DNA of 64,000 nt, from the NCBI GenBank assembly GCA_022606425.2, contig JAHDVF020001020.1:62001-126000 (forward strand), given 5' to 3'. Positions 1,975 through 59,760 of the stretch are shown in pieces (position 1 is the first letter of the stretch; every line of letters starts with the position of its first letter). The notes beneath the pieces were generated by a model that did not search any database, was not told the origin of the DNA, and saw only the letters and a program-made list of their open reading frames with translations. The DNA comes from Lepidostoma basale. Taxonomy: Eukaryota > Arthropoda > Insecta > Trichoptera > Lepidostomatidae. The position numbers were made by a program, and so were the translations under genes.

Positions 1975-2110
1975 AAACACTGTTTTTTCCACTTTTGAGT
2001 TTATTTTTATCGACATGTTTCGAAGGCTTTATAGCTTCATCATCAGGAAAACGATATAAACTTAACTGTCGACTCAAACTGTTAACACCGTAAGTTTATC
2101 TAAAAAAGTT
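1975..2110 (-). repeat. Ribozyme-like repeat, family E
   Basis: An AT-rich repeat unit whose minus strand carries CTGATGAT, a GAAG...CTTC hairpin and GAAACATGTCG. The single arm here has no obvious inverted partner. See the ncRNA entry at 1999-2061 for the fold. Confidence 0.5.
1999..2061 (-). ncRNA. Hammerhead-like ribozyme core (family E)
   Basis: Seen on the minus strand: CTGATGAT (2046-2039), a hairpin with GAAG and CTTC arms (2038-2022), then GAAA (2021-2018) overlapping the palindrome ACATGT (2018-2013), then C (2012). This matches hammerhead core strings C3-U-G-A-N-G-A9 and G12-A-A with A15.1 and U16.1, and predicts cleavage after base 2012. Stem I can form: C 2047 with G 2011, then GTTTAT (2061-2056) with ATAAAC (2004-1999), leaving an internal loop. 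One extra U follows A9, and stem III is only a self-complementary hexamer, which would favour dimers. Cleavage itself is inferred. Confidence 0.45.
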
Positions 2111-2329
2111 TTATTACCATGGATATAAAGAAATCTCTGGTGATAGTATTTAAAGTAGAGAATTTTTTGCGCGAATATTGTAAATCATGAATTCAAGATC
2201 GAGCAAAACATGGCACGATTCCAAATGTTGGCCAATTGATAAGTATGAAAGAGTCATCAGTGCATGATGCTCTGTAAGATTGTTGATTAGTTAATAGAAG
2301 TTAGTTTGGATAAATTAATGTTTCTGGTC

Positions 2330-2382
2330 AATCGTCTCTGTCTGCCTAAACGGGAAAACTGCGTGATGGTTAGATTAATTTA
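2330..2382 (+). mobile_element. LINE-A 3' tip
   Basis: Only the last 50 bases of the element remain: TCTGTCTGCCTAAACGG, then GCGTGATGGTTAG. The tail is a single degenerate GTTA unit. Confidence 0.55.
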
Positions 2383-2407
2383 ATGGTACAGAGGCATGCT
2401 CCACCTT

Positions 2408-2890
2408 TGTTCTTCTTCTTAGACAGCTATTGTCGTCCACTGCTGGACATAGGCCTCCCCCATACCTCTCCACGTATCCATGTCTTGTGCCTTTCGCATC
2501 CAATCGCCGGCAATTCTTCTAATGTCATCAGACCATCGTGATGGGAGTCTCCCTCGGTTTCTTTTGTCTTCACGGGGTCTCCACTCTACCGCCCTTCTGG
2601 TCCATATATCGTCTACCAATTTGGAAACATGTTCCGCAAATGACAATTTAAGTTTAGCTACTCTTTCGACGACATCTGTTACTCCCGACCTTCTACGTGT
2701 TACAGTATTTCTTATCCGGTCTAAGAGTCTTAGATGTAACATGTCTCTTTCGCGTTTCCTTTGTGCTACACGGAGTCTCTTTATGGTCAACTTGGTGAGG
2801 GTTAGCGTTTCTGCTCCATATGTCAGTACTGGAAGTTCGCATTGATCATACATTTTGCATTTCAGACACTGGGGACCATGTTTGATCAAC
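2408..2890 (-). mobile_element. LINE-B fragment (RTE/BovB-like RT C terminus)
   Basis: An uninterrupted 156-codon minus frame (2889-2419) encodes the C-terminal part of an RTE-type polyprotein. Visible blocks are LTYGAETLTLTK, DRIRNTVTRRRSGVTDV, EWRPREDKRNRGRLPSRW and a final WRGMGEAYVQQWT, the familiar end of BovB-like LINEs. It is 5'-truncated with no RT catalytic motifs. The 3' end is a short (GAA)n tail, seen as TTCTTCTTC at 2410-2419. It is open throughout the piece that remains, so it may be fairly young. Confidence 0.8.
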
Positions 2891-3357
2891 TGAAAAAAAA
2901 ATTGAAAATACGAATTAAAACTTGTGAGTGTTTTACTAAACTATTTAAATGGAAAGTTATGTAATTTAACTTAAAGGGCGTTCAGAAAATTAGCGATAAA
3001 AATAGTTCACTTTACTGGGTACTTGACCAACTTGGATATTGAAAAAGTTTTGCTCTGAATATGAAGTTGTAAAATAAATATTTTGCACGCACAAAATATT
3101 AATTAATTAGATGACTTTAGAAAACTTCTATCCTAAATGTGATTTAAATCAAAGTCCTTATAAGCAAGACGTTACCAGCAATATCAACAACATATATGCA
3201 ATTTGACGTATATTCAATTATATAAGGAAATTATATCACTGAAAAGAATATGCTGGAGAACCATTTATGATAGAATATCGAATATCTAAAAGTTACATAA
3301 ATATCTGGATCGTCCAGCTGACTCGTGCACCATAAAAAATAACATTATGTGTTATTT

Positions 3358-3548
3358 ATTGTTTCTTGAACAATGATGTACAACTCCTTATCAAATAAAT
3401 TTTATTATATTTTATGGAAATGACATGTTTCGCACTTCTTAGGCATTACCAAACATTTGATAATGCCTTAGAAGGGCGAAACATGTCATTCCCATAAAAT
3501 ATAATAAAACTTCTAGAAAACTAACGTTTTCATTCGTATTAATTATTA
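3358..3548. repeat. Palindromic ribozyme-like repeat, family C, copy 1
   Basis: The two arms are inverted: TATTTTATGGAAATGACATG on the left and its complement CATGTCATTCCCATAAAATA on the right. Each arm carries hairpin plus GAAACATGTC (right arm 3454-3487). The outer parts (TTCTAGAAAAC, CATTCGTATTAATTATT) recur in other copies. Confidence 0.75.
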
Positions 3549-3599
3549 TGTGTTATGTTATTTCAATTATGTTATTTTATTGTATCTCATTGTATTTTA

Positions 3600-3815
3600 T
3601 ATAACTTGTTTTAGATTTATTTTGAAGACGTTGGACAATCGAAATGTGCGCAGGAGATGCCTATCGGTGGCGATGAGGTTCGCAACCCATCACACTGCGT
3701 TTCCCGCGGGGGCGAAAAGAGAAGGGTGGAGTGCCGCATCGGTTAAAGTGTGGCAGTCCATTCTTTTTACCTATCCCTTCGAAAGGATGGCGTGATGGTT
3801 GGTTATTTAGTTAGA
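3600..3815 (+). mobile_element. LINE 3' end with LINE-A-like tail
   Basis: It shares GTGCGCAGGAGATGCCTATC and the following open frame (RFATHHTAFPAG) with the piece at 23160-23345. It ends in the LINE-A 3' signature (GTGTGGCAGTCCATTCTTT, GGCGTGATGGTTGG). Confidence 0.65.
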
Positions 3816-3819
3816 TAAA

Positions 3820-3890
3820 TGATGTTGATAATACCTTAGCAAGGCAAAACATGTTATTTCTATAAAATATAATAAAACTTCTAGAAAAGT
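3820..3890 (+). repeat. Family C ribozyme-like repeat, single arm
   Basis: TTGATAATACCTTAGCAAGG is followed by CAAAACATGTTATTTC and AATAAAACTTCTAGAAAA. The GAAA of the consensus is CAAAA here. It is an old half-element. Confidence 0.6.
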
Positions 3891-3894
3891 TCAT

Positions 3895-4215: not shown

Positions 4216-4244
4216 ATGAAAGAAAAATGAATAATTAAAACAAA

Positions 4245-4350
4245 AAAAATGATACAAAATTTCTTTATTATTATGTATTTAGTGTGCTTCCACTTGTGTA
4301 TATGTTCGACCGGTTTCGGAAGCTTGCTGCCATCTTCTGGGACCTACATC
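4245..4350 (-). repeat. Family B ribozyme-like repeat, single arm
   Basis: The minus strand has CAGAAGAT, then GGCAGCAAGCTTCC, then GAAACCGGTCGAAC (4340-4304). It has the same order of parts as the copies at 5455 and 9366 but no inverted partner. Confidence 0.6.
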
Positions 4351-4660: not shown

Positions 4661-5204
4661 ACAGACGTCTTCATTCGTATAAATTAAAGCCAATCTTGTG
4701 GTAGTTTCAGGTTAAATTAACGCATCAACTTCCCGAGTCTAATAACGTCGCCTCGAAGAAGTTGCAAACCATAATGATGGTCCAGGGAGGGCACACACTG
4801 TGTAGTTACGAGCACAATAACCAAGTGGGAGGAACTGTAGAAGATAAACACGGATGATGGGGAGATGGGAGAGACCCAGCACGGGCGGCGGTCGGAAAAG
4901 GCTACAATAAGAATCATAAGTAAGAAGGCACAATCCATAATAGAGTCGTATACCCGTGTGCGTAATTCGTACCGAAAAAATTCGAGTGTTTCTCTGTAAT
5001 TTGTGAAATTAGTACTGCGATAAAAGTTGGAATGAAAATTTGTTAGATAAAACTGTTTTTAAATACTATTAACACATTTTTATAAAAACCTTAATAGTTG
5101 GAAATAACAGTAAATATAACTACGTAGTGTAAACTAATAATTAAAAAAGTAAACAAATGATTTTACTGAAATCTCTTAACGGAAGTTCATTTTAAATAAT
5201 TATT

Positions 5205-5375
5205 AAATAAAACGATGTTTTTTAGCTACTTCAACTTTTGTCTTTATTTCGACAGCGAGCGGTTTCGCCAGACTTCAGTCTGTTGATGCCAGCGAGCCTG
5301 GCGAAACCGGTCGCTGTCGAGTTAAAGACAAAAGTGGAAGTACTCATAGTTAAAAAACATCGTTTTATTTAATTA
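5205..5375. repeat. Palindromic ribozyme-like repeat, family A, copy 1
   Basis: The outer arms AAACGATGTTTTTTAGC and its complement near 5355-5370 enclose inverted copies of TTTTGTCTTTATTTCGACAG. Both arms carry the ACCGGT-type core, the left one changed to AGCGGT. The right-arm core is described separately. Confidence 0.8.
5276..5316 (+). ncRNA. Hammerhead-like ribozyme core (family A)
   Basis: CAGT (5276-5279) can pair with GCTG (5313-5316) as stem I. CTGTTGAT (5280-5287) follows, then a perfect GCCAG/CTGGC hairpin (5288-5302), GAA (5303-5305) and ACCGGT (5306-5311), with C 5312 at the predicted cleavage position. Against the hammerhead consensus one core base differs (A6 reads T) and one extra U precedes stem II. 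Activity is uncertain; the arrangement is what is conserved in the other family A copies (6788, 27993, 56728). Confidence 0.4.
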
Positions 5376-5444
5376 ATATAAATTTGAAATTTCATGGTAG
5401 AAGTTCATTGTTAATAATAATATTATAAAAAAAATCTTTTATAA

Positions 5445-5575
5445 AAAGTATATTTAGTTAAAATCCACTAATGTTTGTGTCTTCGACCGGTTTCGGCAGC
5501 TGGCTGGCAGCAGGAGATGGCAGCGAGCTGCCGAAATCGGTCGAACGCAAAAACATTAAGAAATTTTAACTAAGT
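5445..5575. repeat. Palindromic ribozyme-like repeat, family B, copy 1
   Basis: Inverted arms TTCGACCGGTTTCGGCAGCT and AGCTGCCGAAATCGGTCGAA flank a 20-base loop. The outer parts are AAATCCACTAATGTTTGTG and its degenerate complement. The right arm has GAAAT in place of GAAAC. Confidence 0.75.
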
Positions 5576-5584
5576 ATTCATTTT

Positions 5585-5805
5585 AATTTACGGGGACGTC
5601 AAAGACGACGATACTGGCATCAACATGTAGAAAGATTGAGCTCAAATAGAATACCATACATAGCTCTCCATGGAACGCCAAACGGACAACGCCGACCAGG
5701 AAGACCCCGAAAACGGTGGAGAGAAAGCTGGAGTTCAGCGTCTCAAGAGGACCCGCCTGGAATAACAGAGTCTACCAAAAGTGAAGAACAAGAAGAAGAT
5801 TAATT
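5585..5805 (+). mobile_element. LINE 3' end with (GAA)n tail
   Basis: The frame reads RRRYWHQHVERLSSNRIP, then RRPGRPRKRWRESW and ends GAAGAACAAGAAGAAGATT. The GRPRKRW block is the usual C-terminal motif of such LINEs. It is only a C-terminal stub of about 70 codons. Confidence 0.75.
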
Positions 5806-6595: not shown

Positions 6596-6664
6596 TTAAC
6601 TTATTGTTTCTTGAACAATGATGTAAAACTCAATATTTAATGACAGAAATCTCCTGATGGTAGT

Positions 6665-6890
6665 TAATTTTAAATAATAATGAAATAAATCAATGTTTTA
6701 TAACTACTACCATTTTTCTCTTTATTTCGACAACAACCGGTTTCACCAGGTTCACTGGCTTCGACAGACTGGTCCAGTCTGACTATTCTGTCGATGCCAG
6801 CGAGCATGGCGAAACCGGTCGCTGTCTAAATAAAGACAAAAGTGGAAGTAGTTATAAAGCATCGATTTATTTAATTATTATTCAAAATTA
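6665..6890. repeat. Palindromic ribozyme-like repeat, family A, copy 2
   Basis: The outer arms are AAATCAATGTTTTATAACTA and its complement near 6852-6870. The right core is CTGTCGAT (6788-6795), hairpin GCCAGCGAGCATGGC, GAAACCGGTCGCTG. The loop contains a second small inverted repeat, GACTGGTCCAGTC. Confidence 0.8.
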
Positions 6891-6894
6891 AATA

Positions 6895-7630: not shown

Positions 7631-7632
7631 TC

Positions 7633-9312: not shown

Positions 9313-9365
9313 TTCGTAACAAATAATGATAACAAAATCGTAATTAAAAGAAAATGTATATATAT

Positions 9366-9503
9366 TTAAAATTCATTAACGTTTATGTCTTAACCCGGTT
9401 TTAGTAGCTCGCTGCAATCTTCTAGTGACACCAGAAGATGTCAGCGAGCTGTCGAAACCGGTCTTAACCGGTCGAAGACACAAACATTAGTGGATTTTAA
9501 CTT
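9366..9503. repeat. Palindromic ribozyme-like repeat, family B, copy 2
   Basis: Inverted arms: AAATTCATTAACGTTTATGT on the left against ACAAACATTAGTGGATTTTA on the right. The right core is CAGAAGAT, hairpin, GAAACCGGTC (9432-9462), with a small ACCGGTC duplication after it. Confidence 0.75.
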
Positions 9504-9547
9504 AACATACATATGATATAAAAATCTCTATTTACAATGAACTTCTA

Positions 9548-9787
9548 CCATGACTCATTTATTGTTTCTTGGACAATGATATAAAACTCTTTATAAAATA
9601 ATTAATACGAATGAAAACGTTAGATTTCTAGAAGTTTTATTATATTTTATGGGAATGAAACGTTTCGCCCTTCTAAGGCATTATCGTATGCCATTTGATC
9701 ATGCCTTAGAAGGGCGAAACATTTCATTCCCATAAAATATAATATAATAAAATTTATAGATCTGAGATTTTCATTCATATTAATTAT
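9548..9787. repeat. Palindromic ribozyme-like repeat, family C, copy 3
   Basis: A nearly complete copy. Arms CTAGAAGTTTTATTATATTT and complement flank cores with CGCCCTTCTAAGGCATTAT and ATGCCTTAGAAGGGCGAAAC. The outer block ATTGTTTCTTGGACAATG is itself a small hairpin. Confidence 0.8.
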
Positions 9788-12509: not shown

Positions 12510-12735
12510 TTTTTGTCCATTGTTTTGGCCGAAATACTATGATACTTTAACATTATAAACTGTGAAATTAAAAAAATATATATATTTTACGCGACAGCTA
12601 TTCCGTCAACCTATGTTGACATCATCAGGTGTAACAATTATTGTAACACGTGATGATGTCAACATAGGTTGACGAAACAGCTGTCGCCTAAAATAAAAAT
12701 TCAACTGTGATACATAAAACAAAGTTTTTTAATTG
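12510..12735. repeat. Palindromic ribozyme-like repeat, family D, copy 1
   Basis: Inverted arms around 12590-12690 share CGACAGCT, GTCAACCTATGTTGAC and ATCATCA. The right core is GTGATGAT, perfect hairpin GTCAAC-ATAG-GTTGAC, GAAACAGCTGTC (12650-12686). The outer block TCCATTGTTTTGGCCGAAA (12516) recurs inverted beside copies at 51190 and 57380. Confidence 0.8.
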
Positions 12736-12984
12736 AAAGGTTTATATAATTTTAAAGACTACAGTGAAAAATAGAAAGAAATTGATATTTACTAAATAAG
12801 GATGGTTTTGTATTCAAGCTATAACGCAAAATATAAGCGATAATTTAACAAAACTCTTATGATAACTGAAATTCTGTCAAACAGAGGATACAAATATTTA
12901 TTGAACAAATTTATGTATTCTAAATTGATTACGATTTTGAAGTTTTGATGAACAGTTTTCTTTTGTATTAAACCTATTATATCA

Positions 12985-17420: not shown

Positions 17421-17689
17421 AATAATTATATTTAATAATTATTTTAACACGAGTGAAATATTTAGAGAAGTTTAAACCTTATATATCCAGTGTATCAGGA
17501 TCACGTTACTTTTGTAGTAACATTTTTTATGGATAAGGTAAGACAAAAATAAGGTACTTAAGCAGAAAATATTAGAAAAGCCATTTGCTTCAATAATGAA
17601 ATAAAGTAACAAAATATGTGTGTGCAAAAATCTTGAAAATTTTGAAAGTGAAAATCCATAAAGATCAAACAGAAAAATAAATTAAAAAC

Positions 17690-17790
17690 TTTATATCTTT
17701 GTATTATCCACTTTATTTTGACTAAGTTGGGCCAACCGGTTTCACTCTTTAGCGAGCTTCTTCAGGGCTATACACAAACTAAACTTGTTC
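17690..17790 (-). repeat. Ribozyme-like repeat, family F
   Basis: A single arm with outer sequence CCACTTTATTTTGACTAAG. It holds the core listed separately. Confidence 0.5.
17731..17768 (-). ncRNA. Hammerhead-like ribozyme core (family F)
   Basis: The minus strand reads GCC (17768-17766), CTGAAGA plus A (17765-17758), hairpin GCTC-GCTAAA-GAGT (17757-17744), GAAA (17743-17740) within palindrome ACCGGT (17740-17735), T (17734), then GGC (17733-17731). GCC and GGC can pair as stem I. All core positions C3-U-G-A-N-G-A9 and G12-A-A fit the hammerhead pattern; the extra base after A9 is the same oddity as in family E. Activity is inferred only. Confidence 0.45.
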
Positions 17791-18334
17791 AAAATGAAGT
17801 GGTTAATACGACGGAAAAAAGTGTTCAATTTTTAAATACGAGTACATCAAACCACCAATGGCTTCGTATCAAAGAAAAAACCTGTTTTGCATAATGTCAA
17901 GTGATTCCATATTTTTAAATTTATTATTATTATTTTTTTATCATATATCATCGTTTCTCTTACTGCTTAAATATTCATAGGAACAAACCACATTTTATAA
18001 TGGTAATAAAACATTTTTGAAGCTTACTTTGAATGTATATTTAATGGATGTACTAGGATCGGCAATGATAATTCATTTTTTAGTTAATGGCGGTCTCAAA
18101 AGCTTTCGCAGTAAATTATTTTGCTTAATTCGCAAAACTGCAAAAAAACCTGATTTGAAAATAGGATTATTTTAGAAAAGTATTTTAAATCATTATTTTA
18201 TCTTTATTGATGCAAAAAATAAAACGCTGTGTATTTAACCTCGGTATGAGTATATCATACCGTGGATAAATAAAATATTTTTTGTTTTTTTATATCTATT
18301 ATCTATATTTCTTTATATCAACATTGAAAAGCTC
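17791..18334. other. Unassigned AT-rich interval
   Basis: No coding or repeat signal was recognised. Confidence 0.3.
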
Positions 18335-21083: not shown

Positions 21084-21245
21084 ATGTTCTGGTCTGGTGT
21101 AGAATTCACGTGATAATAAAATGGCGATAGATTAGCTACCTATCACATGTCACGAGAATCACTATGATAGCTATAATAATACCCTTTACATCGATTTGGC
21201 TCATGCTGTCATGATGTAAAGAGCGATTCAACAAAATAATAATTT
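21084..21245 (+). mobile_element. SINE tail type B, 5'-truncated
   Basis: It starts inside the body at TCTGGTCTGGTGTAGAATTC and runs through tail B (ACATCGATTTGGCTCATGCT, GAGCGATTCAACAAAATAAT). The tRNA-like head is absent. This is the cleanest copy of tail B. Confidence 0.8.
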
Positions 21246-21254
21246 GTTTAATAA

Positions 21255-21455
21255 TATTTTTTACATTGATTTTCTTTCATCATTTATAAAAAAAATATCT
21301 ATAATAGTGACAAATTTGTTTCGCCCTGCGAGGGCATTCTGAGACTACTTCGCGTTTGAGAATGTCAAAAAACAAAACAAAACAAAACAAATTTGTCACT
21401 ATTATTTATATATATTTTTATAAATAGTAAAAAAAACAATCAATGTAAAATATAA
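21255..21455. repeat. Palindromic ribozyme-like repeat, family H
   Basis: The outer arms ACATTGATTTTCTTTCATC and complement, and the inner arms AATAGTGACAAATTTGTTT and complement, frame a minus-strand core: CTCAGAAT, GCCC-TCGCA-GGGC hairpin, GAAA with palindrome ACAAATTTGT, then C (21352-21310). The right arm has lost its hairpin and has an (AAAAC)n run instead. Confidence 0.65.
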
Positions 21456-22548
21456 TAATAAAAAATCGCGTTTTAATACATACTCTTATTATTATTATAA
21501 CGGAGTTTTCAAAAATTAAAACCAAAACGATAATTGCTTCTTAAACAATAATTAAATGAATATGGAAGATAATAAAAATAAGTTTCGAATTATCTAAATG
21601 AACGTCATTAATTTTATGTAATTTTTATATTCTTCTTCGTCATCTTATTTTATATCATTGGTCTGTTCTTGAATGAGGTCACTTCTCTTGGGAAGTGGAA
21701 CACCGGCTATCTTTTCATCTTTTTGACGGTCTTCCTAGCAGACGATGTCCCACTGTTATACGAGTTTTGTGGGTAACCTAATGAGGAATTCTTGCACCAC
21801 CCATCCTATCAACGTGGTTTTTCCAGTACCGCCATCTTTTCCAGACTCATCTCACAATGTATTTCGTTTTAAATATTATATTAGAATAATATATTATTTT
21901 TTGTGTGTTGTTATTGTTAAATATAAACATCCGTTAATATATCGCAAAATAAATGAGCAAAAACGCGCATGTCATTCATTTTGAAAAATGTTTTACAAGT
22001 TCAGAATATCTGAGTTTGTCATGTTTAGTCGGAATATATGGATAATAGATACAGGAAGATTTCACTTTCATATTTCATACCCAAGTTAAACATTTATACT
22101 TTGTTCTACTATACTTTTAAACCGATCGCTTTTTAAGCGGTCACATTTAGATTTTTAGATTTAAAACACGTCTTAATGCGCCCTTGAGGTGATTACATCA
22201 CAAAAACGGCGCTTTACAAGTTAGCATATTATTATTATTATTATTATCTGGCATCCTTATTATTCTTAGATAAATATTATCTGTGATAAACGTTTTCACA
22301 GCAGTATATATTAGATATCATTATCATAATATAAATAGGCAAAAACTGATGTCGTCAAAAAAGAGTACGAGAATATTTTAAATACAAGAGAGCGAGAAAG
22401 GAATATTTCGATTCTCTCCGAAAGTAATTCGAAATGCACACGATGTACATGCCGGAGAACGTTTCTAGATAGATTATTTAAAAAAATTGTTCTGATTATT
22501 GCTGTATTACAGTAGTGTATAATACAAAAGGAGAAGAATTTGGTTTTA
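21456..22548. other. Unassigned AT-rich interval
   Basis: Contains a short (ATT)n run at 22229-22248 and a chance 79-codon frame at 21745-21984. Nothing else was recognised. Confidence 0.3.
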
Positions 22549-23817: not shown

Positions 23818-23915
23818 TCGCTACATTTGATAATACCTTAGCAAAGTAAAACGTGTCACTCGTTAAAAATACAATATATTGAAACCTCTAAAAACTAGAT
23901 GTTTTTATTATTATT
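23818..23915 (+). repeat. Family C ribozyme-like repeat, single arm
   Basis: ACATTTGATAATACCTTAGC, AAAACGTGTCACTC and a decayed outer arm. The hairpin is incomplete. Confidence 0.55.
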
Positions 23916-24177
23916 AAATAATGTTTATATATTCCTAATCTTGGTAATATGAATAAAAATATGTCTTTTAACCCCCATTCTGCGGTTGGCTTCATTTGTA
24001 GTAAGAACATGGTTTCGAACTGCGTCTGACTACATTTGCAGTTCAGACAGATAGTCCAAGTTCATAAGAAGTGAAGAACTTAAGTAAAAATGTTCCTAGG
24101 ATACATTCAAATATGGACTGCAAATGTAATCGAAATCATTTTTTTGTACTGCAAATATAGAATTTTGTACTGCAAAG

Positions 24178-25964: not shown

Positions 25965-26610
25965 CCCTCTCTAGCTTTACCCACATTCATACAGCGAGTC
26001 ATACACGCACGTCGATTCTTCCGGCTTCTGAATGAACAACCTATAAAATTTTATTAATTTGGTCATGCCATGTTTTCCTCGGTCTACCTCGACTCCGTAC
26101 TCCATTTACATCGTTAACCTATACATTTTTAACCATTCTCTCTTCACCCATGCGCTCCATATGTCCGAACCAACGCAGCGATCCTTTCATAATTTTGTTT
26201 ATAATACCTTCTTTCGCTCTACATTCCTTTCTAATATCAGAATTTGAGATTCTGTCGTACATCGTTCTACCACACATACGTCTTAGGGACCTTATATCTA
26301 CCGCATTTATTCTGCTCTTATTTTTCATCTACCAGTTCCATGCTTCGCTTCCATACATAAGGGTTAGGACCAGAACTCCATTGTGAACGGCCATTTTAGC
26401 TTTTATTGATAAATTCTTGTTTCCAATAACTATTTTTAAAGCTCCATTCACTTTGTTACCCGCACCAACCCTTCTTTCAACATCACTGTCCGTTCAGCCG
26501 TCCGCTGTGAACATGCTACCTAAATACACAAATTCCCTCACCTGTTCCAAGTTCTCTTCATTCACACTTATATTACAAACTGTCATTTGCCCTACCCTTT
26601 CAAAAACGTT
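25965..26610 (-). mobile_element. LINE-A copy (subfamily 1), 3' tip missing
   Basis: The minus frame 26328-26119 reads KNKSRINAVDIRSLRRMCGR, TMYDRISNSDIRKECRAKEG and LRWFGHMERMGEE. The copy extends upstream to the fusion with family C at 26605. The terminal GGCGTGAT and its tail are absent, so it has lost its 3' end. Confidence 0.85.
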
Positions 26611-26800
26611 TTTAAATATTTTATTGGAATAACATATTTCACCTGAAAAGGCATTATCAAATGATATTATCAATAATATTGTGGTTAGGTTAGGTAAATA
26701 TATTATTCACTTAAAATATAATAAAACTTCTAGAAAACATATGTTTTCATTCGTATAATTATTTGATATGGAGTTTTATATCATTGATTAATAAATAATA
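26605..26800. repeat. Family C ribozyme-like repeat, degraded
   Basis: The left arm TATTTTATTGGAATAACATA and core CACCTGAAAAGGCATTATCA are recognisable. The right arm core is lost and replaced by GTGGTTAGGTTAGGTAAATA; AATAAAACTTCTAGAAAACA and CATTCGTATAATTATTTGAT remain. Confidence 0.6.
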
Positions 26801-27319
26801 AACAACACCTTTAATTAAAATACAAATAATTGATTGTTTTATTGCCCGAAATAATTAAAGTTTTAGAGAAAGGCATTGAAGTTATAGATGGATGCAATTG
26901 AAGGGCTTAGTGTGTGCTTGTATTAAACACAAGCAAGCCGACAAAGCCACAAGTCACAAGGAGAGTAGTACTTCTTCGAAACCATCAAGTTGGCGATGTA
27001 TAGTGATATTAAGGGCTTAGCGTAGGCGGCGAAGAGCAAGAGAGAGGCGAGAGAACGTATTCTGCGTAGTTTATGAAACGAATAAAAGATTTCTCTTATC
27101 AAATAATTTGTTTCTAGTTTTATTGGAACAAGGAAACATCTTTGTTTTTACGGTTTTTGTTTAACTTGACTATCTATGGTATCTGGTTTTTGGATATATT
27201 CTTGAATTTATATAAAAGCAACGCAATGATTTAATAATCCACTGTTTGGGCGTAAACACTTTTATATATCAACATTATTAACTGGTAATTGCGTAGATTT
27301 TCACGGTTGGCAGCAATAC
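26801..27319. other. Unassigned interval
   Basis: 26880-27070 is less AT-rich (CAAGCAAGCCGACAAAGCC, GGCGGCGAAGAGCAAGAGAG) with no frame recognised; the rest is AT-rich. Confidence 0.3.
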
Positions 27320-27396
27320 GTTTGTTGTGTTTTTGGGTAACACCGTGTTACCCAAACGCATTACAACACACGGTGTTACCCAAAAACACAACAAAC
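27320..27396. repeat. Perfect 29-base inverted repeat
   Basis: The arms 27320-27348 and 27368-27396 (starting GTTTGTTGTGTTTTTGGGTA) are exact complements around a 19-base loop that itself contains GTTACCCAAACG. It would form a strong hairpin. A very short MITE is possible, but no target duplication is evident. Confidence 0.75.
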
Positions 27397-27446
27397 ATAT
27401 AACATTATTAACTGTTTAAATAAAAACTTTGTTATTAATATCAAAA

Positions 27447-27535
27447 TTGATTATATTTTGTCGCGACAGCTGTTCCACTATCTGAAGTTAGCATCGTCAG
27501 GTCTTACAATCAACTATATCATTGATTTTGATATA
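27447..27535 (-). repeat. Family D ribozyme-like repeat, single arm
   Basis: The minus strand has TTGATTGTAAGAC, CTGACGAT (27500-27493), a decayed hairpin and GGAACAGCTGTCGCG, then AATCAA (27452-27447), which can pair with TTGATT (27513-27508) as an outer stem. The GAAA core is altered. Confidence 0.55.
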
Positions 27536-27705: not shown

Positions 27706-27894
27706 AGATATTTATTGTTGTTAAAAACAATGATGCTGTTATATAAAAATGAAATAATTTATTAAAGGTATTTATTTTAACATATTAAAACATGATTTTT
27801 TGCCGGACAGAATTTTGTTTTTGCTAGTGTAGCTAAAATAGAAATTGAAATAAAATAAAACATTTAAATAATAATAATAAAAAAAGTGTATTTT

Positions 27895-28018
27895 ATAAAA
27901 TACTTCCACTTTTTGTCTTTATTTCGCCAGCGATCAGTTTCCTTAGACTAAGTAGCGTTGACAGACTGGGACCAAGTGTGTTGATGCCAGATAGCCTGGT
28001 GAAACCGATCGCTAACTC
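27895..28018. repeat. Palindromic ribozyme-like repeat, family A, copy 3
   Basis: The left arm ACTTCCACTTTTTGTCTTTA..CGCCAGCGATCAGTTTCC and the right core GTGTTGATGCCAGATAGCCTGGTGAAACCGATCGCT (read in two pieces at 27982-28012). The right outer arm is missing. Confidence 0.65.
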
Positions 28019-28044
28019 CCCTTAAGAGATTTCTGTAAAATCCT

Positions 28045-28320
28045 TATTCTTCTTCTATTTAAATTTTCTCACTATCGAGGGTTGTGATTCACGGAGCAGC
28101 CTGTGGTTAAAACAAAATGCATCCAATCCTATCTGTTCACCGCAGCCTGCACCACCAAGTAAAATATCTCCCCCAGTCATCTCCTTCATCTGATCACACC
28201 ATCTCGAAGGAGATCTGCATCTTCTTCTTATTTTGTCTGGAACTCTTCCTGTGATACTTTTTTTACAGGTAACCAGCTCTTTCCTGACAATGTGACCAAA
28301 GTATCTCAACACTCACCGAC
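28045..28320 (-). mobile_element. LINE 3' end (RYFGHIVRK type)
   Basis: The minus frame 28312-28055 reads LRYFGHIVRKELVTCKKSIT and RCRSPSRWCDQMKEMTG, then RLLRESQPSIVRKFK. The tail AAGAAGAATAAGG lies at 28050-28038. The R-Y-F-G-H block is the equivalent of WFGHMER in LINE-A. Confidence 0.75.
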
Positions 28321-28344
28321 TGCATAATACAGATAAATTAGTTG

Positions 28345-28430
28345 TTTGTAACACCTGATGATGCCTATATCGGTTGGCGAAACGGCTTTCGCGATAAAAA
28401 ATAAAAATATTTGTGATGTCATAAGAGTGT
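28345..28430 (+). repeat. Family D ribozyme-like repeat, single arm
   Basis: GTAACACCTGATGATGCC (CTGATGAT at 28354), a loop ending GTTGGC, then GAAACGGCTTTCGCG. The palindrome that is ACAGCTGT elsewhere is altered here. The flank ATTTGTGATGTC fits family D. Confidence 0.6.
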
Positions 28431-30795: not shown

Positions 30796-30884
30796 AATTA
30801 TATATATCAACAATACATGTAATGGAATTTATTCCGTCAATTACAAAATAAATCAAATAAAACAAAAATAGTTTTTTTGTATAT

Positions 30885-31080
30885 TATTTCTTAAACAATG
30901 ATGTAAAACTCCATATTTAATAATAATTACGAATGATAACGTCTGTTATATACCAGTATAAGTTTTATTAGATAATATTTTATGGGAATGACATATTTCA
31001 CCTATCTAACGTATTATAAAATGTCATTTGTCATTCGTACTTAAAAAAATGCTAAACATTATAATATAATTATTATTTCG
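30885..31080. repeat. Family C ribozyme-like repeat, degraded
   Basis: TATTTCTTAAACAATGATGT, ATTACGAATGATAACGTCTG, TTTTATGGGAATGACATATT and TTCACCTATCTAACGTATTA. Only the left arm is preserved well. Confidence 0.6.

Positions 31081-31200: not shown

Positions 31201-31816
<616 letters not shown>

Positions 31817-33095: not shown

Positions 33096-33097
<2 letters not shown>
31817..33097 (+). mobile_element. mariner transposon (Mos1-like), complete, TA-flanked
   Basis: The 1281-bp element has perfect 30-bp inverted repeats: TTAGGTGTATAACTTTGCTT... at 31817-31846 and its complement at 33068-33097. TA borders both sides (31815-31816 and 33098-33099), the mariner target. Length, ends and transposase fit the mauritiana/Mos1-like group. 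It lies inside (TA)n, where every second base offers a target. The only visible defect is one nonsense codon. Confidence 0.95.
31984..33024 (+). pseudogene. mariner transposase with one in-frame stop
   Basis: The reading frame covers 346 codons, the normal mariner length, with a TGA at codon 220 (32641-32643) and no frameshift. The N-terminal half has two HTH regions for binding the inverted repeats (TCREWFQRFKNGDFNVED near residues 45-62 and GVTQPAISKRLKVMG near 97-111), then WVPYEL at 119-124. The catalytic triad is DD34D: D156 in VTGDEKW, D249 in LQHDNARPH and D284 in YSPDVAPSDYHLF. These are the positions known for Mos1. The protein cuts and pastes the element in the nucleus. The TGA could come from CGA by CpG decay. 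Without readthrough the second and third acidic residues are lost, so this copy should be inactive. The start is the first ATG after the 5' UTR and matches the family (MSxY/MSSF). Confidence 0.95.
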
Positions 33098-33539
<442 letters not shown>

Positions 33540-33554
33540 TACTTTAAGACAATG

Positions 33555-33675
33555 GTTCAGAAAGTATTACCACATCGCTGTTCAGGGTCGCAGTCATCAA
33601 GGTGAAAATAGCCCCGATGATCGCCAACCTTCGCCAAGGAGACAGCCCTTAGAAAAGAAGAAGAAGTCAAGAAGT
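33555..33675 (+). mobile_element. LINE 3' tip with (GAA)n
   Basis: GATGATCGCCAACCTTCGCC, AAGGAGACAGCCCTTAGAAA, then AGAAGAAGAAG. Its 5' end is at or inside the TA tract. Confidence 0.6.
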
Positions 33676-35094: not shown

Positions 35095-35200
35095 AGTATT
35101 TTATTAACATTGTACAATATTTTCAAAACACTCCTTTGCATATTTGCAGACCGCATACGTCCTTCCTCAGTGAAGATATTCTAACAATACTATAAGATGA
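35095..35200 (-). repeat. Ribozyme-like repeat, family G, weak
   Basis: The minus strand has CTGAGGAA (35175-35168), a GGAC-GTATGCG-GTCT hairpin, then GCAAATATGC in place of GAAACATGT. The resemblance to the other families is partial. Confidence 0.3.
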
Positions 35201-40770: not shown

Positions 40771-41299
40771 AATCACACTTATAATTTGGTAATTTTGTGA
40801 GGGTCATTATAAGTTTTCTATATACAGAGTGCTCCATAATTAATGAATTTATATTTTTCATAAATTATAATCTTTTTAGTTTGAAAATATAAATGTCAAG
40901 GAAAAATCAACATAAGTTTCCATTATATGATATCTGCATAGTTATATCTAAATACTGAAAAATATTGGTCATGTCTAAATTGATTTGGAATAATGAAAAA
41001 ATCTTCTTCATCTTATTAAAAGTTATTCATCTGTTGTTAATGTAAATTTATAATAGTAACTCAAATTATCTCGGTTTAATAATTTTCTAATAAATAATGG
41101 TATAAAAAATTACATGTATACTTAAATTTCACGTTTTCTTTAATTTCGACCGATAACAGCAGCTCGATGCAATATTTTGATGGCGTGAACTGCCAAAAAA
41201 AAACGGGCGAAACAAAGGAATAAGTGGAATAAAACTATGTATACAGTTTTTCATAGAGATTATACATAAATTATGAACGAACTGTAATTTGGTTCTTAA
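40771..41299. other. Unassigned AT-rich interval
   Basis: No gene or repeat was recognised. Confidence 0.3.
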
Positions 41300-46995: not shown

Positions 46996-47514
46996 AAGTT
47001 CATAATTAACATTTATTTAGGATAACAATATACGAGTACTAAACAATTCCAATAATATATAGATAATAATTTTCTAAGAAAATTTGATATATGTTTGTAT
47101 TGAAAATAGTGTTACATAGATATATTATGTTGTAACCAAAAAACAGTACTTTAACGAATGTCCAATATTTTTCAGATGATTAATGGTTTATTCATATCTG
47201 TAGATCTCGAGTGTGAATATTGCGTACCAAAATATACAATATTTTTTCTCACACACACATTATTATTATAATCATCGGTTTTGTTTATTTGCAATAACAT
47301 TGCCAATTTTCAATGAAAACTTATTATATTTATTTAAACATTTAATAATTCAAGGAATATGTTTAAAAAAACTAAAACCAGCGAACGGACACCAAATTTT
47401 ATATTTTATACTTAATTAAGGATATAAGTATTATATTTTTATTTGTTAATTTATTAAAAAAAAAACTGGTGGATTCTAATTTATATTCTATGATGTCATA
47501 TGACATACTTCTAT
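46996..47514. other. Unassigned AT-rich interval
   Basis: No gene or repeat was recognised. Confidence 0.3.
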
Positions 47515-48810: not shown

Positions 48811-49551
48811 AAAATATTTACACCTGAAGATAGAGGTCACCTCCGTAACATAAAATAAATAAAAGTTTAATAAAAACAGCGTAGTAAATTCAATTTCAAG
48901 GTCATTACAATAGAATTACAGTGTTAACGTTCTAAACTTCAATAAAGTATTATATATTAATTTTAAAAGCGATATATTATACATAATCCATGTCATCTTA
49001 TATGTGTAATAATTCCATAAACTCAATTAACTCCTATTAATATCGAGGTGGCGATCTTTGCCCGATTCTCCTTCACAAGGCGAGGCTGGTTATTAATTCA
49101 ATATCGGATTTACTTTCGTGTTTTTGAATAAATTGAAGGAAGATAACGTCCCGAAAACGTGATTCAATGGGCAGTCCTTAATAGGTCCCTTAGTTTACCG
49201 GAGGATTATGTGAGATTAGGATTAGGATATATTTGAACTAAGGTTAGGTTTAGTCCTTAGACCTTCGTAGCTAAGCATTGCGAATGGCTGGTGAGGAATC
49301 TAAATCAAACAAATATATCTTCATCACCACACCAACTGAATATGGAGCTAGTGCTTATCTTATATATTTAACTCTACCTTTTTTTGTAAATACTGTAGGA
49401 TAAATACGTTTTCTTCTCTTTATATGTTAATAAGTATTCATATTCGAAGACAAATTTATGTAAATTCTTAACAATTTAAAGATCATTTTATTTACCAGTT
49501 TATTGTCTTAAGTATTGTTATTGTCGATTAAGTAAACATATTTTATTTAAA
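48811..49551. other. Unassigned interval
   Basis: No gene was recognised. Isolated TTAGG-like words near 49210-49260 are not an array. Confidence 0.3.
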
Positions 49552-49801
49552 TAATTAATACGAATGAAAACGTCAGTTTTCTAGAAGTTTTATTATATTT
49601 TACGGGAATGACATGTTTCGCCCTTCTAAGGCATTATCGAATGTTTCAATATTTCAAATATCAAAAACATTTGATAATACCTTAGAAGGGCGAAGCATGT
49701 CATTTCCAAAAAAATATTTTATAACTTCTAGAAAACAGACGTTTTTATTCGCATTAATTATTTAATATGGAGTTTTACATCATTGTTCGAGCAACAATAA
49801 A
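49552..49801. repeat. Palindromic ribozyme-like repeat, family C, nearly complete
   Basis: Outer arms TTAATACGAATGAAAACGTC against GACGTTTTTATTCGCATTAA; inner arms CTAGAAGTTTTATTATATTT and a degraded complement. The left minus core is GATAATGCCTTAGAAGGGCG, AAACATGTC; the right core is similar with GAAGC for GAAAC. The outer hairpin ATTGTTCGAGCAACAAT follows at 49781. This is the best guide to the family's boundaries. Confidence 0.85.
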
Positions 49802-49849
49802 TCTGTTTTCTATTTATTGAAAAAAAAAAAAAACATTCGATTTCCAAAA

Positions 49850-50284: not shown

Positions 50285-50465
50285 AATGATAAATACGAAT
50301 TAAAACGTATATTTTTTCTAGAAATTTAATTGGAGTTAATGTGACGGATATATTTCACTATATAAGGCATTTGATAATAATTTGAAAATGCGAAACATGT
50401 CATTCAAATATACTTTAATAAAACATCTAGCAAACAAACGTTTTCATTCGTGTTGATTATTTAAT
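50285..50465. repeat. Family C ribozyme-like repeat, short palindrome
   Basis: AATACGAATTAAAACGTATA, TTCTAGAAATTTAATTGGAG and TTTCACTATATAAGGCATTT face TTGAAAATGCGAAACATGTC, AATAAAACATCTAGCAAAC and AACGTTTTCATTCGTGTTGA. Confidence 0.7.
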
Positions 50466-50544
50466 CAAAGTATGTCTGTAAAGAATCTATCAACATAACT
50501 TTCTTAATCGAACGTTAATCATTAATGTCTGTTTTCATATTATT

Positions 50545-50640: not shown

Positions 50641-51057
50641 TTGATTATAAAATAACTTTGTTTTTAAATTAAAAACTTATCCCCTGTACAATCTAGCTAA
50701 AAAATAATAATACTACCTTCAACTTTTCTCATCTTTCCTATTAATGTAATCTATGTATGTACTTCCTGTTATTGTTTATCGATTTTAATTTATGATGTTT
50801 CATCGTTTTTGACTCTGTACTATGTGTGATTGTTTCTTCTAATTATTGTTTTATTATTATAATTATTATTTTATTATTATAACTATTATTTTATTATTAT
50901 ATTTTCCACCTTTAATATTTTCTCCAATAAATAGTAACTAACCGTTCGTTAAAATAAAATATTTAGATACCTTATTCAACTTCAGTAAGAACTTCAAAAT
51001 TCAAATTGACTCACATAAAGATTCGAAAAATCACGAAAATTTGACATTTGATATATT
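50641..51057. other. AT-rich interval with ATTATT runs
   Basis: TTATTATTATAATTATTATT near 50850-50905 is low-complexity. Nothing else was recognised. Confidence 0.4.
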
Positions 51058-51205
51058 ATTGTAACACCTCATGATGTCAACATAGGTTAATGAAACAGCT
51101 GTCGCGTAAATAAAATACAATTGTGATACAAAAAACAAAGTTGATTGATTAACAGTTTAAAATGTTAAGGTGTCATAGTGTTTCGGCCAAAACAATGGAC
51201 TTTTT
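51058..51205 (+). repeat. Family D ribozyme-like repeat, right half
   Basis: TTGTAACACCTCATGATGTC, AACATAGGTTAATGAAACAG, CTGTCGCG (51060-51107), then AAACAAAGTTGATTGATTAA and the outer block TTTCGGCCAAAACAATGGAC at 51181. CTGATGAT reads CTCATGAT. Confidence 0.7.
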
Positions 51206-51850
51206 AATATTATTTGATTTTTATTACCAAAAACATTGTCGATATTTCGGAAAACAAGCTTCTTTGGATCAAACCAAAAAAAAAAAAAATTGTAATAAAA
51301 ATTGTATAATAATAAAATTGTAAACGCTTACCTTCTGATACCATTGAAACACTTCTTAATTCAATTGTCATCCTGAGTTTCGGCTACTGCAATTCACTGT
51401 ATGCCGGACAACCCAAGAAGCAACTGGAAAGACTGTAAAGTATAATGAAAATTGATGTAATATTTACTTTCAAAATACTTTTACACAACTGGATTTAAAT
51501 AAATCGTATTTTGTATTTTGTACAAATGTTTGTACAATCTCCAATATGAGTAGAAATGGTAGCTCAATATAATATGAGGAAAGCGGATCCGGTGTAAAAT
51601 CGAACCTAAGCCCCTAGATCACGAGCCAAGCTTTCTGTCATCACCAGGATGTCTAATATCACATTAATCATCCTGTCAAGATACCAGTACATTGATATGA
51701 TGTCTAACAAATACCATTCGCAATGACTTTATGAGTTAGCTTAGGCGTCTCAGCAGAGCCCAAATACATAACATATATTCATCGTAAACCAAAAAAATAT
51801 CCACCATGAAGTTTGAAAATGCAAAAGCTATTAGAAACTATGTTTACAAG
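51206..51850. other. Unassigned interval
   Basis: No gene or known repeat was recognised. Confidence 0.3.
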
Positions 51851-52715: not shown

Positions 52716-52737
52716 ATTACTGATTATATTTTACTTC

Positions 52738-54034: not shown

Positions 54035-54611
54035 GGAGAACAAACGTAATACGAAATACGTAGTTCACACAAAGAAAAATAAAATTTAATAATAAAATTG
54101 GTTACTAATTTTGAGTAAAAGGTTTTTTCTAATAAGAGTTTATCATTAGAATTCACCCCTACTCGAGTACCGAGAGATAAGAGCAACATCCATAGGACTT
54201 CCAGTGAATCAAGTATTAGATTGCAGATAGGCTTTTCACTGAGAAGAGCGCAAGGAAGGATGCTGCTTCCTGCTTCCTTTTTCATATTAAAAACGCCTGT
54301 TTCACTACTAAAAATATTAGATGTGAAAAGGCCCGAGTTTTTATTGGAAATTTCTTTACTGCTTTCGATTTCCTTTAGCAAAACGATTTGTAAATATTTG
54401 TGTTTTATTTCGATTTTTTTCGTTACGCGCCAAAAAGAATTATTCCGCAAAAGGAAAATTTCATTTTTGCTTCAATACTAAATAAAACATGATATAATAA
54501 TTGATTTTATGTATTCGACATGTACGAAGATAGAATCTTGATGGTAATAAACAATAGGAATATTTATTTCTATCTTCATAAGACTTAAAATATAAACAAT
54601 TGTAACACAAT
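54035..54611. other. Unassigned interval
   Basis: Overlapping frames on both strands (54450-54007 -, 54221-54481 +) have no recognised domain. Confidence 0.3.
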
Positions 54612-54830
54612 TGATTATTTTTTCTCGCGACAGCTGTTTTGCTAACCGATGTTAGCATCGTCAGGTCTTACAATCAACTAAGACCTGACGATGTTACCAT
54701 CGGTAAGCGAAACAGTTGTCGCGAGAAAATATTTTATTAATTGTGATATTAATAACAAAGTGTTTTTTATTATTTTTAAACAGTTAATGATGTTGAAATA
54801 TCAAAGTATTTCCGCCAAAAACGGATTTTC
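54612..54830. repeat. Palindromic ribozyme-like repeat, family D, full palindrome
   Basis: Inverted arms run from TTGATTATTTTTTCTCGCGA (54611) to TCGCGAGAAAATATTTTATT (54719). The minus core is CTGACGAT, perfect GCTAAC-ATCG-GTTAGC, AAAACAGCTGTC (54664-54629). The plus core is CTGACGAT (54685-54692), then hairpin TTACC-ATC-GGTAA, GAAACAGTTGTC. The outer block ATTTCCGCCAAAAACGGA follows at 54807. Confidence 0.85.
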
Positions 54831-55140: not shown

Positions 55141-55149
55141 TTAATTTAA

Positions 55150-56435: not shown

Positions 56436-56762
56436 TTCTTTAACTACTTTCACTTTTGTCATAATTTCGACAGCGACCGGTTTCGCCAAGCTTGCTTTCA
56501 TCGACAAACTAGTGAAACTGTTACATACTTACTATTTTATATACATACAGATCAGGGATGGTAAAAATGATTTTATACAAAAATATTAATGTAAAAATTA
56601 AATTAAATTCAGTAAATTTTATATATGTTATTAATTTAAAGATTATTTTTGTACAGAATCATGTTAACCACCTCTGATCTGTTCATATATAAAGGAGTAA
56701 TTTTGTTACAGGGGCACCAGTCTGTCGATACCTGGCGAAGCCGGTCGCTGTTGAAATAATTT
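56432..56762. repeat. Family A ribozyme-like repeat with a 210-base loop
   Basis: The left arm TTAACTACTTTCACTTTTGT..CGACAGCGACCGGTTTCGCC (56448-56489) faces the right core CTGTCGATACCTGGCGAAGC and CGGTCGCTGTTGAAATAATT (56728 on). The loop holds a separate inverted pair (ATACAGATCAGGGATGG / CCACCTCTGATCTGTTC), probably another small insertion. Confidence 0.7.
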
Positions 56763-56871
56763 ATATATAATTTTAAATACAAGAAATGAAAGGGTATTGT
56801 CACAGTTCATATAAATTCCTCATTAAGTTAATTCCTAAATAGTAAGTCTTTTCATTTGTTACTTTAGTTTA

Positions 56872-56945
56872 TTGTAACACCTGATGATGCCAACATCGGT
56901 TAGCGAAACAGCTGTCGCGACAAAGTAAATAAAAAGGCGGGGTAG
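56872..56945 (+). repeat. Family D ribozyme-like repeat, right arm
   Basis: Begins TGTAACAC and holds the core given separately. The outer block TTTCGGCCAAAACAATGGAC lies 430 bases on (57372), so the element is split or followed by an insertion. Confidence 0.65.
56880..56917 (+). ncRNA. Hammerhead-like ribozyme core (family D)
   Basis: CTGATGA plus T (56881-56888), hairpin GCCAACATCGGTTAGC (56889-56904, one mismatch), GAAA (56905-56908) and palindrome ACAGCTGT (56908-56915), then C 56916. All invariant hammerhead core letters are present. Stem I is poor: only C 56880 with G 56917 pairs next to the core. Activity is uncertain. Confidence 0.35.
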
Positions 56946-58134: not shown

Positions 58135-58720
58135 ACTAACTAACTAACTTACCATCACGCCGTCTCCCCGGAGGGGTAGGCAGAAAGAATGGAACGCCAC
58201 ACTGTTCTGTCCTGACATACGTCTTTCGCTTCCTCTACATTCATACATCTTGTCATGCACGCACGTCGATTTTTCCGACTCCTCACGTGACCGACATTCA
58301 ATATTTGATTGATTTGATCGTACCACGTTTTCCTCGGCCTTCCTCTATTTCTAGCTCCGTTCAAGCCGTTTACATATACCTTCTTTACCATTCTGTCTTC
58401 ACTGATTCTTTCCAAGTGTCCAAACCATCTTAATGACCCTTTCCTTATTTTGTTCATAACACTTTCATTCGCACCACATTCACTTCTTATACTTGCATTT
58501 GTCACTCTATCATATACAGATTTGCCACATTCGTCTTAGAGATCTCATTTCTACTGCATTTATTCTACTTTCATCCTTCTTTTGCCAGTTCCATGCTTCA
58601 CTTCCATACATAAGGGTCGGCACAACAACACCATTGTGCACTGCCATCTTAGCTTTTTTGGATAGGCTTTTGTTTGCGATGACAACTTTAAGTGCACCAT
58701 TTATTCTGATATTCAAAAAT
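58135..58720 (-). mobile_element. LINE-A copy (subfamily 2, GTTA tail)
   Basis: The tail AACTAACTAACTAACTTACC is at 58135-58153. Minus frames 58716-58510 (NGALKVVIANKSLSKKAKMA, VVVPTLMYGSEAWNWQKKDE) and 58505-58155 (TNASIRSECGANESVMNKIR, SLRWFGHLERISEDRMVKKV, RRACMTRCMNVEEAKDVCQD) differ by one base near 58508. The second frame is open to the natural stop. Well preserved. Confidence 0.9.
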
Positions 58721-58854
58721 TTAATAAATAATATTTAATCATTTAAATAGTTAGGGGTTTCTTCCGCACCTCCGAAAATACCTTCCTGCACTTCCAGGGG
58801 TGCGGGCACCACAGGTAAAGAACCACTGTTATATGGTATTAACAAAAAAATAAT

Positions 58855-59010
58855 ACATTTAATTATCTGTTTTCAAGATTTTTTTAAAATATTATATATG
58901 AGACTGATATGTTTCAAATTTCTAAGAATTATATAATTCCTTAGTAACGGAAACATGTTCCCATAAAATACACAAAAACTTTTTTAGACAACAGGCATTT
59001 TCATTCATTT
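58855..59010. repeat. Family C ribozyme-like repeat, degraded
   Basis: GACTGATATGTTTCAAATTT, TTCCTTAGTAACGGAAACAT and CAACAGGCATTTTCATTCAT keep the order of parts only. Confidence 0.5.
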
Positions 59011-59124
59011 GAAAAATGATATACTCGTAAGTTAGAATATTGATTATTTAATATGAATGTAATCGTATATTTTTTAAGTCTTAAGTATTATTGTTTCAAG
59101 TGACAAGTTTCGCATATTAAAAAA

Positions 59125-59305
59125 AATTGATACGAATAAAAACATGCGTTTTATAGAAGTTTTATTACATTTTATGGGAATGACAAGTTTCACTTTGCTA
59201 AGGCATTATCAAATGTCAAATGTGTTTCAGAGTTAATTAAAATGTATTTGATAATGCCTTCGCAAGGCAAAACATGAATGTTCCATATAAAATGAGTATA
59301 ATATA
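59125..59305. repeat. Palindromic ribozyme-like repeat, family C
   Basis: TGATACGAATAAAAACATGC, TTTTATGGGAATGACAAGTT and TGCTAAGGCATTATCAAATG face TTTGATAATGCCTTCGCAAG and GCAAAACATGAATGTTCC. The hairpin is a perfect GCCTT-CGC-AAGGC. Confidence 0.75.
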
Positions 59306-59318
59306 ACATATAAATGAG

Positions 59319-59575
59319 ACGACCTTCGTGGCAGAGTGGTTACGAGCTCTGACTTCCATGTTGAAGGTCCTGGGTTCGATTCCCGGCGATGGCAGTGTGA
59401 TTGTTACACTGTCTGGTCTGGTGTAGAATTCACGTGACAATAAAATGGCGATAGATTGGCTACCTCTCACATGTCACGAGAATCAATATAATAGCTAAAA
59501 AATAAAAATTGTACACAGTAATTGGGTCCAAACGACCTGTTGTGTACATAAAAAAAAAAAAAAAATAATAATAAT
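59319..59575 (+). mobile_element. tRNA-derived SINE, tail type A, full-length reference copy
   Basis: GACCTTCGTGGCAGAGTGGT starts at 59321; box A GTGGCAGAGTGG is at 59329-59340 and box B GGTTCGATTCC at 59373-59383, 33 bases apart. The body has TGTGATTGTTACACTG and GTGTAGAATTCACGTGACAA. Tail A (GTACACAGTAATTGGGTCCA, ACGACCTGTTGTGTACAT) ends in A15 then (AAT)n. A Pol III promoter with an A-rich end is the mark of a retroposed SINE. It depends on LINE enzymes in trans. Confidence 0.95.
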
Positions 59576-59589
59576 AAAAATAATAATTA

Positions 59590-59760
59590 AACTTCTAGAA
59601 AACAGACGTTTTCTTTTGTATTTATTATTATGACATGTTTCGCCTTCCTGATGCCACTATTGAGTGTTATTTGATGGTGTCTTTTTCAGCAAAATAAAAC
59701 AAGTCACTTCCATAAAATTCAATAAGACTTCTAGAAAACCGACATCAGTAATCCTTAAAA
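59590..59760. repeat. Family C ribozyme-like repeat
   Basis: TTCTAGAAAACAGACGTTTT is followed by an inverted left core CATGTTTCGCCTTCCTGATG, then a loop and AAACAAGTCACTTCCATAAA with ACTTCTAGAAAACCGACATC. Confidence 0.6.

Follow-up and report, generated by a model that had tools for sequence, protein, structure and literature searches.

Short palindromic elements with a hammerhead-like motif in Lepidostoma basale as probable reduced ends of Penelope-like elements

Introduction

The hammerheads, inverted ends and tails of Penelope-like elements (PLEs) are already known, and they form the background to the elements described here, short arms with a hammerhead-like motif found in a 64-kb stretch of the trichopteran Lepidostoma basale (contig JAHDVF020001020.1, positions 62,001 to 126,000; hereafter the window). 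Lunse, Weinberg and Breaker reportedly described, in 2017, small PLE-associated hammerhead variants with a short or missing stem III that cleave as dimers. The biochemistry used below concerns PAc, an element of Anolis. The PAc protein cuts both strands and extends them; reverse transcription starts at two internal sites whose interval equals the tail (PMC11167929). The PAc hammerhead cleaves only with the protein and is dispensable for insertion in vitro (PMC11167929). In Adineta, PLEs have head-to-head inverted pseudo-long terminal repeats, one of them tailed, with 8-10 bp duplications (PMC3846280). Minimal type I hammerheads (Cervera and de la Pena 2014, as described in PMC7761336) occur in PLEs and dispersed in metazoan genomes. 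The insertion route of Penelope and the purpose of its hammerhead are still open (PMC11167929, PMC7761336).

The window is AT-rich, belongs to a genome of 769 Mb in 1572 contigs, and holds dozens of the short arms. One family of them, family A, consists of the ends of a Penelope-like retrotransposon encoding reverse transcriptase (RT) and a GIY-YIG domain. Probably, the arms in general are PLE ends reduced to a hammerhead-like motif plus a tail, and the palindromes they form came from priming on both target strands. The RNA of the motif is a candidate hammerhead ribozyme, judging from its layout.

Results

Each arm has, in order, a hammerhead-like core, one extra base, stem II, GAAA, a self-complementary block and H17. 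In 37 window arms aligned by hand, from which more divergent arms were excluded, exactly one base stands between A9 and stem II in every case. It is U in E, in H and in every D, B and C arm; family A has U in four arms, A in one and C in one, and F has A. Among copies from the genome, T stands there in 32 of 40 C arms and 39 of 40 D arms (20 copies each). A strict motif was defined by U4, G5, A6, A9, a C-G or U-A 3-8 pair, four stem II pairs, a perfect palindrome and H17. With one extra base it matched the window four times (in E, C, D and F), against none in 60 shuffles; with zero, two or three extra bases it had no match in the window. This bears out the original prediction of a hammerhead-like order with one additional base after A9. 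A looser motif gave eight window matches against a shuffle mean of 0.12. An initial, cruder scan was far less clean (at score 9.5, 20 matches versus a mean of 4.65) and was dropped as too loose.

The pairing of stem II is kept family by family despite differing letters. In the register fixed by the core, its first four pairs are standard in 83% of cells across the 37 arms, compared to 26-40% when slid by 1-3 bases, and the seven family consensus strings form 27 of 28 pairs, a figure that the 3′ strands reach in 4 of 5040 dealings. An alignment of 15 arms from families A to D agrees, with stem II and the 3-8 pair 89% paired, versus 18-52% when slid. Stem I, whose letters were typed by hand from alignments, pairs less well (20 of 28; 7 of 5040 dealings); it is good in A, E, F and H and poor in B, C and D, where two, two and one of the first four pairs form, respectively. 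Among the hammerhead stems, both stem II and the self-complementary block are clear.

The core is more variable, and overall it does not keep the conserved CUGANGA...GAAA. The CTGANGA-like core of the original prediction holds as the majority core, and matches at the consensus level (plus one base), in D alone; the majority is CTGTCGA in A, CAGAAGA in B and TTGATAA in C, and further copies in the genome have CCGATGA (E) and TTGAGAA (H). The consensus of A, B and E each departs at one core base (A6 or U4), and F is mixed; these deviations in three families would be expected to weaken any self-cleavage. In C and H a U3-A8 pair compensates. In the 15-arm alignment the 3-8 pair is C-G in nine arms, U-A in four and something else in two, and among genome C arms it is U-A in 35 of 36 usable ones. 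U3-A8 occurs in natural hammerheads that are active in vitro (PMC3088659). Rfam found no hammerhead in the window, either at the gathering score or at E 10. In RNA co-folding, the minimum-energy monomers of D, A and F were folds other than the hammerhead, which came near the minimum for E; a dimer was neither proved nor excluded.

In viral contigs, the extra-base pattern (A or T after CCTGAWGA) had at least 120 matches, and 8 among the 120 listed have three stems surrounding the core, each with an extra T (slid controls gave 0, 0, 1 and 1). They lie in contigs L003, L005, L006, L007, L018, L071, L103 and L108, and each is a three-stem hammerhead in which A9 is followed by one extra U. All eight were among 12 loci given to Rfam, which called none of them at the gathering score; its calls were other hammerheads, in L003 and in L031, the one in L031 with bases inserted at the place after A9. 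Since the extra U is also present in viral three-stem hammerheads, it is probably a recurrent natural variant, and in the arms the extra base after A9 appears to be a shared, old trait of the motif. We also considered whether the extra U reflects a PLE start codon (A9-U-G10.1). The PAc text agrees, with a frame that begins at stem II and a cut 26 bp downstream, the distance here being 25-30 nt (PMC11167929). The sequences here do not confirm it: F reads AAG, C and E hit a stop at once, and in a PLE copy described below (L199) a stop follows the AUG at that place after 11 codons. The idea was dropped.

The families had been predicted to be unrelated. A covariance model (R1) was built from the 15 arms of A to D, with E, F and H held out. 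It gave 36 window matches at E ≤0.01, including the 15 training arms and one unassigned match, and it recovered F (4e-5), E (0.0011) and, weakly, H (0.025). A proposed weak family G at 35095 had no R1 match up to E 5 and is not supported. A to F and H were found at or beside their predicted positions. A match at 47265-47313 (minus strand; E 3.5e-4) fits no family and looks unconvincing, a hint that R1 E-values are rough. The profiles of A, B and E match one another, and so do those of C and H. Because the profiles cross-match and one covariance model joins all seven, the families are related.

The link to PLEs comes from the same genome, in which a GIY-YIG search, with 150 of 541 candidates scored, gave at least 62 matches at E ≤0.001. 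Two loci with a 758-residue frame were examined, L199 and L200, which are 99.4% alike across 3.38 kb and have inverted ends of at least 456 bp. The L199 frame contains RVT_1 at residues 302-478 (E 1e-13) and GIY-YIG at 651-734 (E 7e-5). At both inverted, head-to-head ends of both copies lies the family A motif, matched by R1 at E 1e-14 to 1e-13 and by the family A profile at E 1e-26 to 1e-25. In both copies the right end has a long tail and the left end a short one, as in the small elements of the window. These A-type ends are also matched by B (E 1e-15) and E (E 2e-4). The original prediction of a minimal Penelope-type hammerhead-like motif, whose stem III is very short and self-complementary, is thus supported, and the Penelope link itself holds for family A. 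A decayed Penelope-type GIY-YIG fragment was also seen in a 200-kb sample of another contig (L190:6879-7010, minus strand). A GIY-YIG peptide search for PLEs in viral and other genome contigs gave phage-like or bacterial loci only.

The elements of the window are as follows; where no strand is given, none is assigned.

1966-2054, minus strand: family E, single arm; core CTGATGA, extra T, stem II, GAAA, ACATGT, C17 and tail; R1 held-out match at 2004-2053, E 0.0011
3359-3557: family C palindrome C1; long tail left, short right; flank repeat ATGTGTTAT; ends judged by eye
3825-3888, plus strand: family C, single arm; R1 match
4240-4345, minus strand: family B, single arm; core CAGAAGA
5186-5379: family A palindrome A1; left arm long-tailed and 5′-truncated within stem II
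5442-5585: family B palindrome B2; left tail long
6661-6894: family A palindrome A2; located in the left tail of C2
6888-7098: family C palindrome C2; left arm truncated within stem II
9345-9553: family B palindrome B3; long tail broken by C3
9557-9788: family C palindrome C3; an insertion in the tail of B3; flank repeat CTACCATGAC; the B2 tail is the uninterrupted counterpart
12563-12742: family D palindrome D1
17679-17831: family F; core CTGAAGA and extra A in the left arm, tail part only in the right; R1 held-out match at 17727-17772, E 4e-5
21244-21465: family H palindrome; block ACAAATTTGT; left-arm stem I of 6 pairs; R1 held-out E 0.025
23823-23920, plus strand: family C, single arm
26598-26805: family C palindrome C5; right arm degenerate
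27400-27521, minus strand: family D, single arm
27863-28050: family A palindrome A3; right arm with far tail kept, near tail gone
28338-28425, plus strand: family D, single arm
30877-31034, minus strand: family C, single arm with far tail
41113-41244: family B palindrome B4; decayed; newly found
49547-49803: family C palindrome C7; right far tail; query of the genome search
50314-50470: family C palindrome C8; newly found
51049-51211, plus strand: family D, single arm with far tail
54603-54830: family D palindrome D5; right far tail; query of the genome search
56436-56760: family A palindrome A4; about 200 bp separate the arms
56864-56935, plus strand: family D, single arm; full core CTGATGA
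58870-58986: family C palindrome C9; decayed; newly found
59125-59312: family C palindrome C10
59583-59739: family C palindrome C11; decayed; newly found

Those marked newly found were absent from the original prediction. In every palindrome the arms are on opposite strands, with the 5′ ends of the motifs facing inward and the tails outward, a layout that supports the outward-facing copies in inverted arms proposed earlier. We searched for the far-tail motif in both arms of 18 window palindromes of families A to D, and it was clearly better in one arm in 13 of them. In nine (C1, C2, C3, C5, C7, C8, B3, D1 and D5) it is present in one arm only; in A1, A3 and B2 the match in the other arm is weaker or 356 bases off; A2 has an equally weak match in each arm (9 and 13 of 100 random windows), and its asymmetry was judged from the alignment. 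The remaining five have the far tail in neither arm (no match in C9, C10, C11 and B4, a chance-level one in A4). By eye, genome copies of C and D follow the same rule of one long and one short tail.

In C and D the outer ends are fixed, and the inner end is constant as well. In C, conservation fades to background some 4-6 bases upstream of the core, in D some 14-16 bases upstream, and single-arm copies share one inner end point. Truncated arms are present in A1, C2, H and F. In A1, B2, C2 and D5 the arms are unequal at the centre, and the truncated one appears to be the long-tail arm (four cases, by eye).

What lies between the arms differs from copy to copy. Across 20 C copies from the genome, the arms resemble one another and the centres are unrelated. 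The C centres are 12-28 bases long in the 19 copies read, the twentieth (L145) being a rearranged piece, and the 19 spacers are as dissimilar as shuffled ones (10.9 versus 10.1; self 39). D centres, by eye, have from zero to a few bases, or small truncations. Arm identity within an element is 0.938 for C, versus 0.937-0.943 between elements (18 elements), and 0.868 for D, versus 0.855-0.863 (16 elements); neither family has separate long-tail and short-tail lineages.

Insertion is directly visible at C3, which splits the B3 tail with a 10-bp repeat at its flanks, the B2 tail giving the unbroken order. Among the genome copies, a flank repeat of at least 8 accompanies 15 of 20 C copies, versus 6% of mismatched flank pairs, and 7 of 11 D copies, versus 7%. 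C and D thus show the short target duplications of PLEs, and the palindromes seem to be made anew with each insertion.

Outside the window, a 200-kb stretch of another contig had 41 R1 matches at E ≤0.05; if it is typical, the genome would hold of the order of 100,000 arms, a figure extrapolated from that one stretch. A genome search covering C, D and E returned 4782, 1982 and 2867 first-look candidates, respectively, C being the highest.

The window is not rich in tRNA or genes. Retrotransposon relics and a mariner-like frame also appear to be present. A mariner-like transposase lies at 31984-33021, split over two frames. Long (TA)n-type tracts, which translate as IYIYIY frames, occupy 31529-31860 and 33025-33605; the PLE copies L199 and L200 are likewise located in TA tracts. 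A tRNA-Gly (tcc) called by ARAGORN at 59322-59394, with an Rfam score under gathering, directly adjoins palindrome C10. A separate palindrome at 27316-27400 (TTTGTTGTGTTTTTGGGTAACACCG...), dissimilar to the motif, abuts a family D arm.

Discussion

The biochemistry of PAc and the layout in Adineta together suggest that the small elements fit the PLE machinery. On the reading we favour, a PLE protein would cut both target strands, and each cut would prime reverse transcription that starts at either of two sites within the RNA. Each complementary DNA (cDNA) would run off where the RNA template ends, at its 5′ terminus, and the two cDNA ends would then be linked by end joining, giving a palindrome in one stroke. 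Two internal start sites would explain the long and the short tail, and if run-off came from a motif copy at the transcript's 5′ end, the small elements would contain only motif and tail, as they do. A fuller version is tentative, and we lean slightly against it: the palindromes would be one-step miniatures, with PLE RT primed from both strands, a start at the tail site beside a 5′ hammerhead, run-off, and joining with new filler. The one-base-extra hammerhead (often with AUG across A9-U-G10.1) would then be a separate fold variant, protein-assisted or purely structural, that binds the PLE protein.

Several observations weigh against the origin of the arms as reduced PLE ends joined after priming on both strands. 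Five of 20 C copies and 4 of 11 D copies are without a flank repeat of 8, and three C copies (L148, L151 and L156) are nested in other C copies, which could mimic a duplication. D matches the A-type PLE ends at E 0.13 only, C, F and H have no match at E 1, and a parent PLE for B to H was not seen among the two loci examined. The 20 C and 20 D genome copies are those that best match a complete palindrome, which leaves truncated copies under-represented. Equal arms would also be expected from one uniform RNA or from one perfect palindrome, and copying as a unit is countered by the unrelated centres alone. Self-priming, in which one cDNA or antisense transcript snaps back and turns a PLE end into a palindrome, is favoured by the Adineta authors, on an antisense template (PMC3846280), and some centres do look palindromic, that of L148 for example. 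Arms made by snap-back would carry one template's variants in common, however, and arms within an element are no more alike than arms of different elements; the C centres are mostly 12-28 bases of unrelated filler, and a far tail stands in one arm and not in the other. We regard self-priming as rather unlikely.

Plain palindromic miniature inverted-repeat transposable elements (MITEs) of a DNA transposon, with a coincidental likeness to hammerheads, would also be high-copy, short and noncoding palindromes bearing flank repeats. Neither terminus is an inverted copy of the other, though, the centres are unrelated among copies with no shared interior, single-arm copies end at one same inner point, and family A terminates a PLE with RT and GIY-YIG. 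This reading, part of what the original prediction said would overturn it, is argued against by the differing centres and unlike ends; we rejected it on those grounds and find it scarcely credible. It is distinctly unlikely, too, that the arms are active dimeric hammerheads, selected for self-cleavage and spreading as retrozyme-like circular RNAs. Stems are paired across families, the self-complementary block suits a dimer, and the change of C3-G8 to U-A in C and H is known from active natural hammerheads (PMC3088659). However, the A, B and E consensus is changed at A6 or U4, the near part of stem I has just 1-2 pairs in B, C and D, and of the three families searched C has the largest number of first-look candidates. 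Arms stand head to head rather than as head-to-tail units cut at the ribozyme site, and the inner ends, 4-15 bases upstream of the core, are not located at the cleavage site. PAc hammerhead mutants, moreover, still insert (PMC11167929).

If the arms are reduced PLE ends, thousands of very short, near-complete insertions with fixed outer ends and new centres would form a natural record of the joining step, and the model of priming on two strands would become testable from sequence. The graded series of cores, intact in D, compensated in C and H and broken in A, B and E, with stem II kept throughout, would make it possible to tell what the fold does from what cleavage does. In the literature covered, which lacked two key papers on PLE hammerheads, we found no published palindromic miniature PLE derivative with this motif.

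Among known systems, the variants of Lunse and colleagues reportedly share a minimal hammerhead with short or missing stem III and a link to PLEs. Metazoan retrozymes are likewise small nonautonomous retroelements with type I hammerheads; they give circular RNAs of ~170-400 nt from repeats, whereas the arms here are head to head (PMC7229834). Minimal type I hammerheads resemble the arms in their many dispersed noncoding copies, some in PLE pseudo-long terminal repeats, and in having no helix III; those are tandem dimers and the arms here are inverted (PMC7761336). PAc and the Pen families of Adineta vaga (Penelope/Poseidon type) share an RT plus GIY-YIG frame, a terminal hammerhead motif, and head-to-head inverted ends, one of them tailed, with short target duplications. 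The PAc frame starts at stem II, whereas the AUG of L199 at the equivalent place is followed by a stop after 11 codons. Unlike PAc and the Adineta families, the copies in L. basale mostly consist of motif and tail only, lie very densely (41 matches per 200 kb) and keep a constant inner end.

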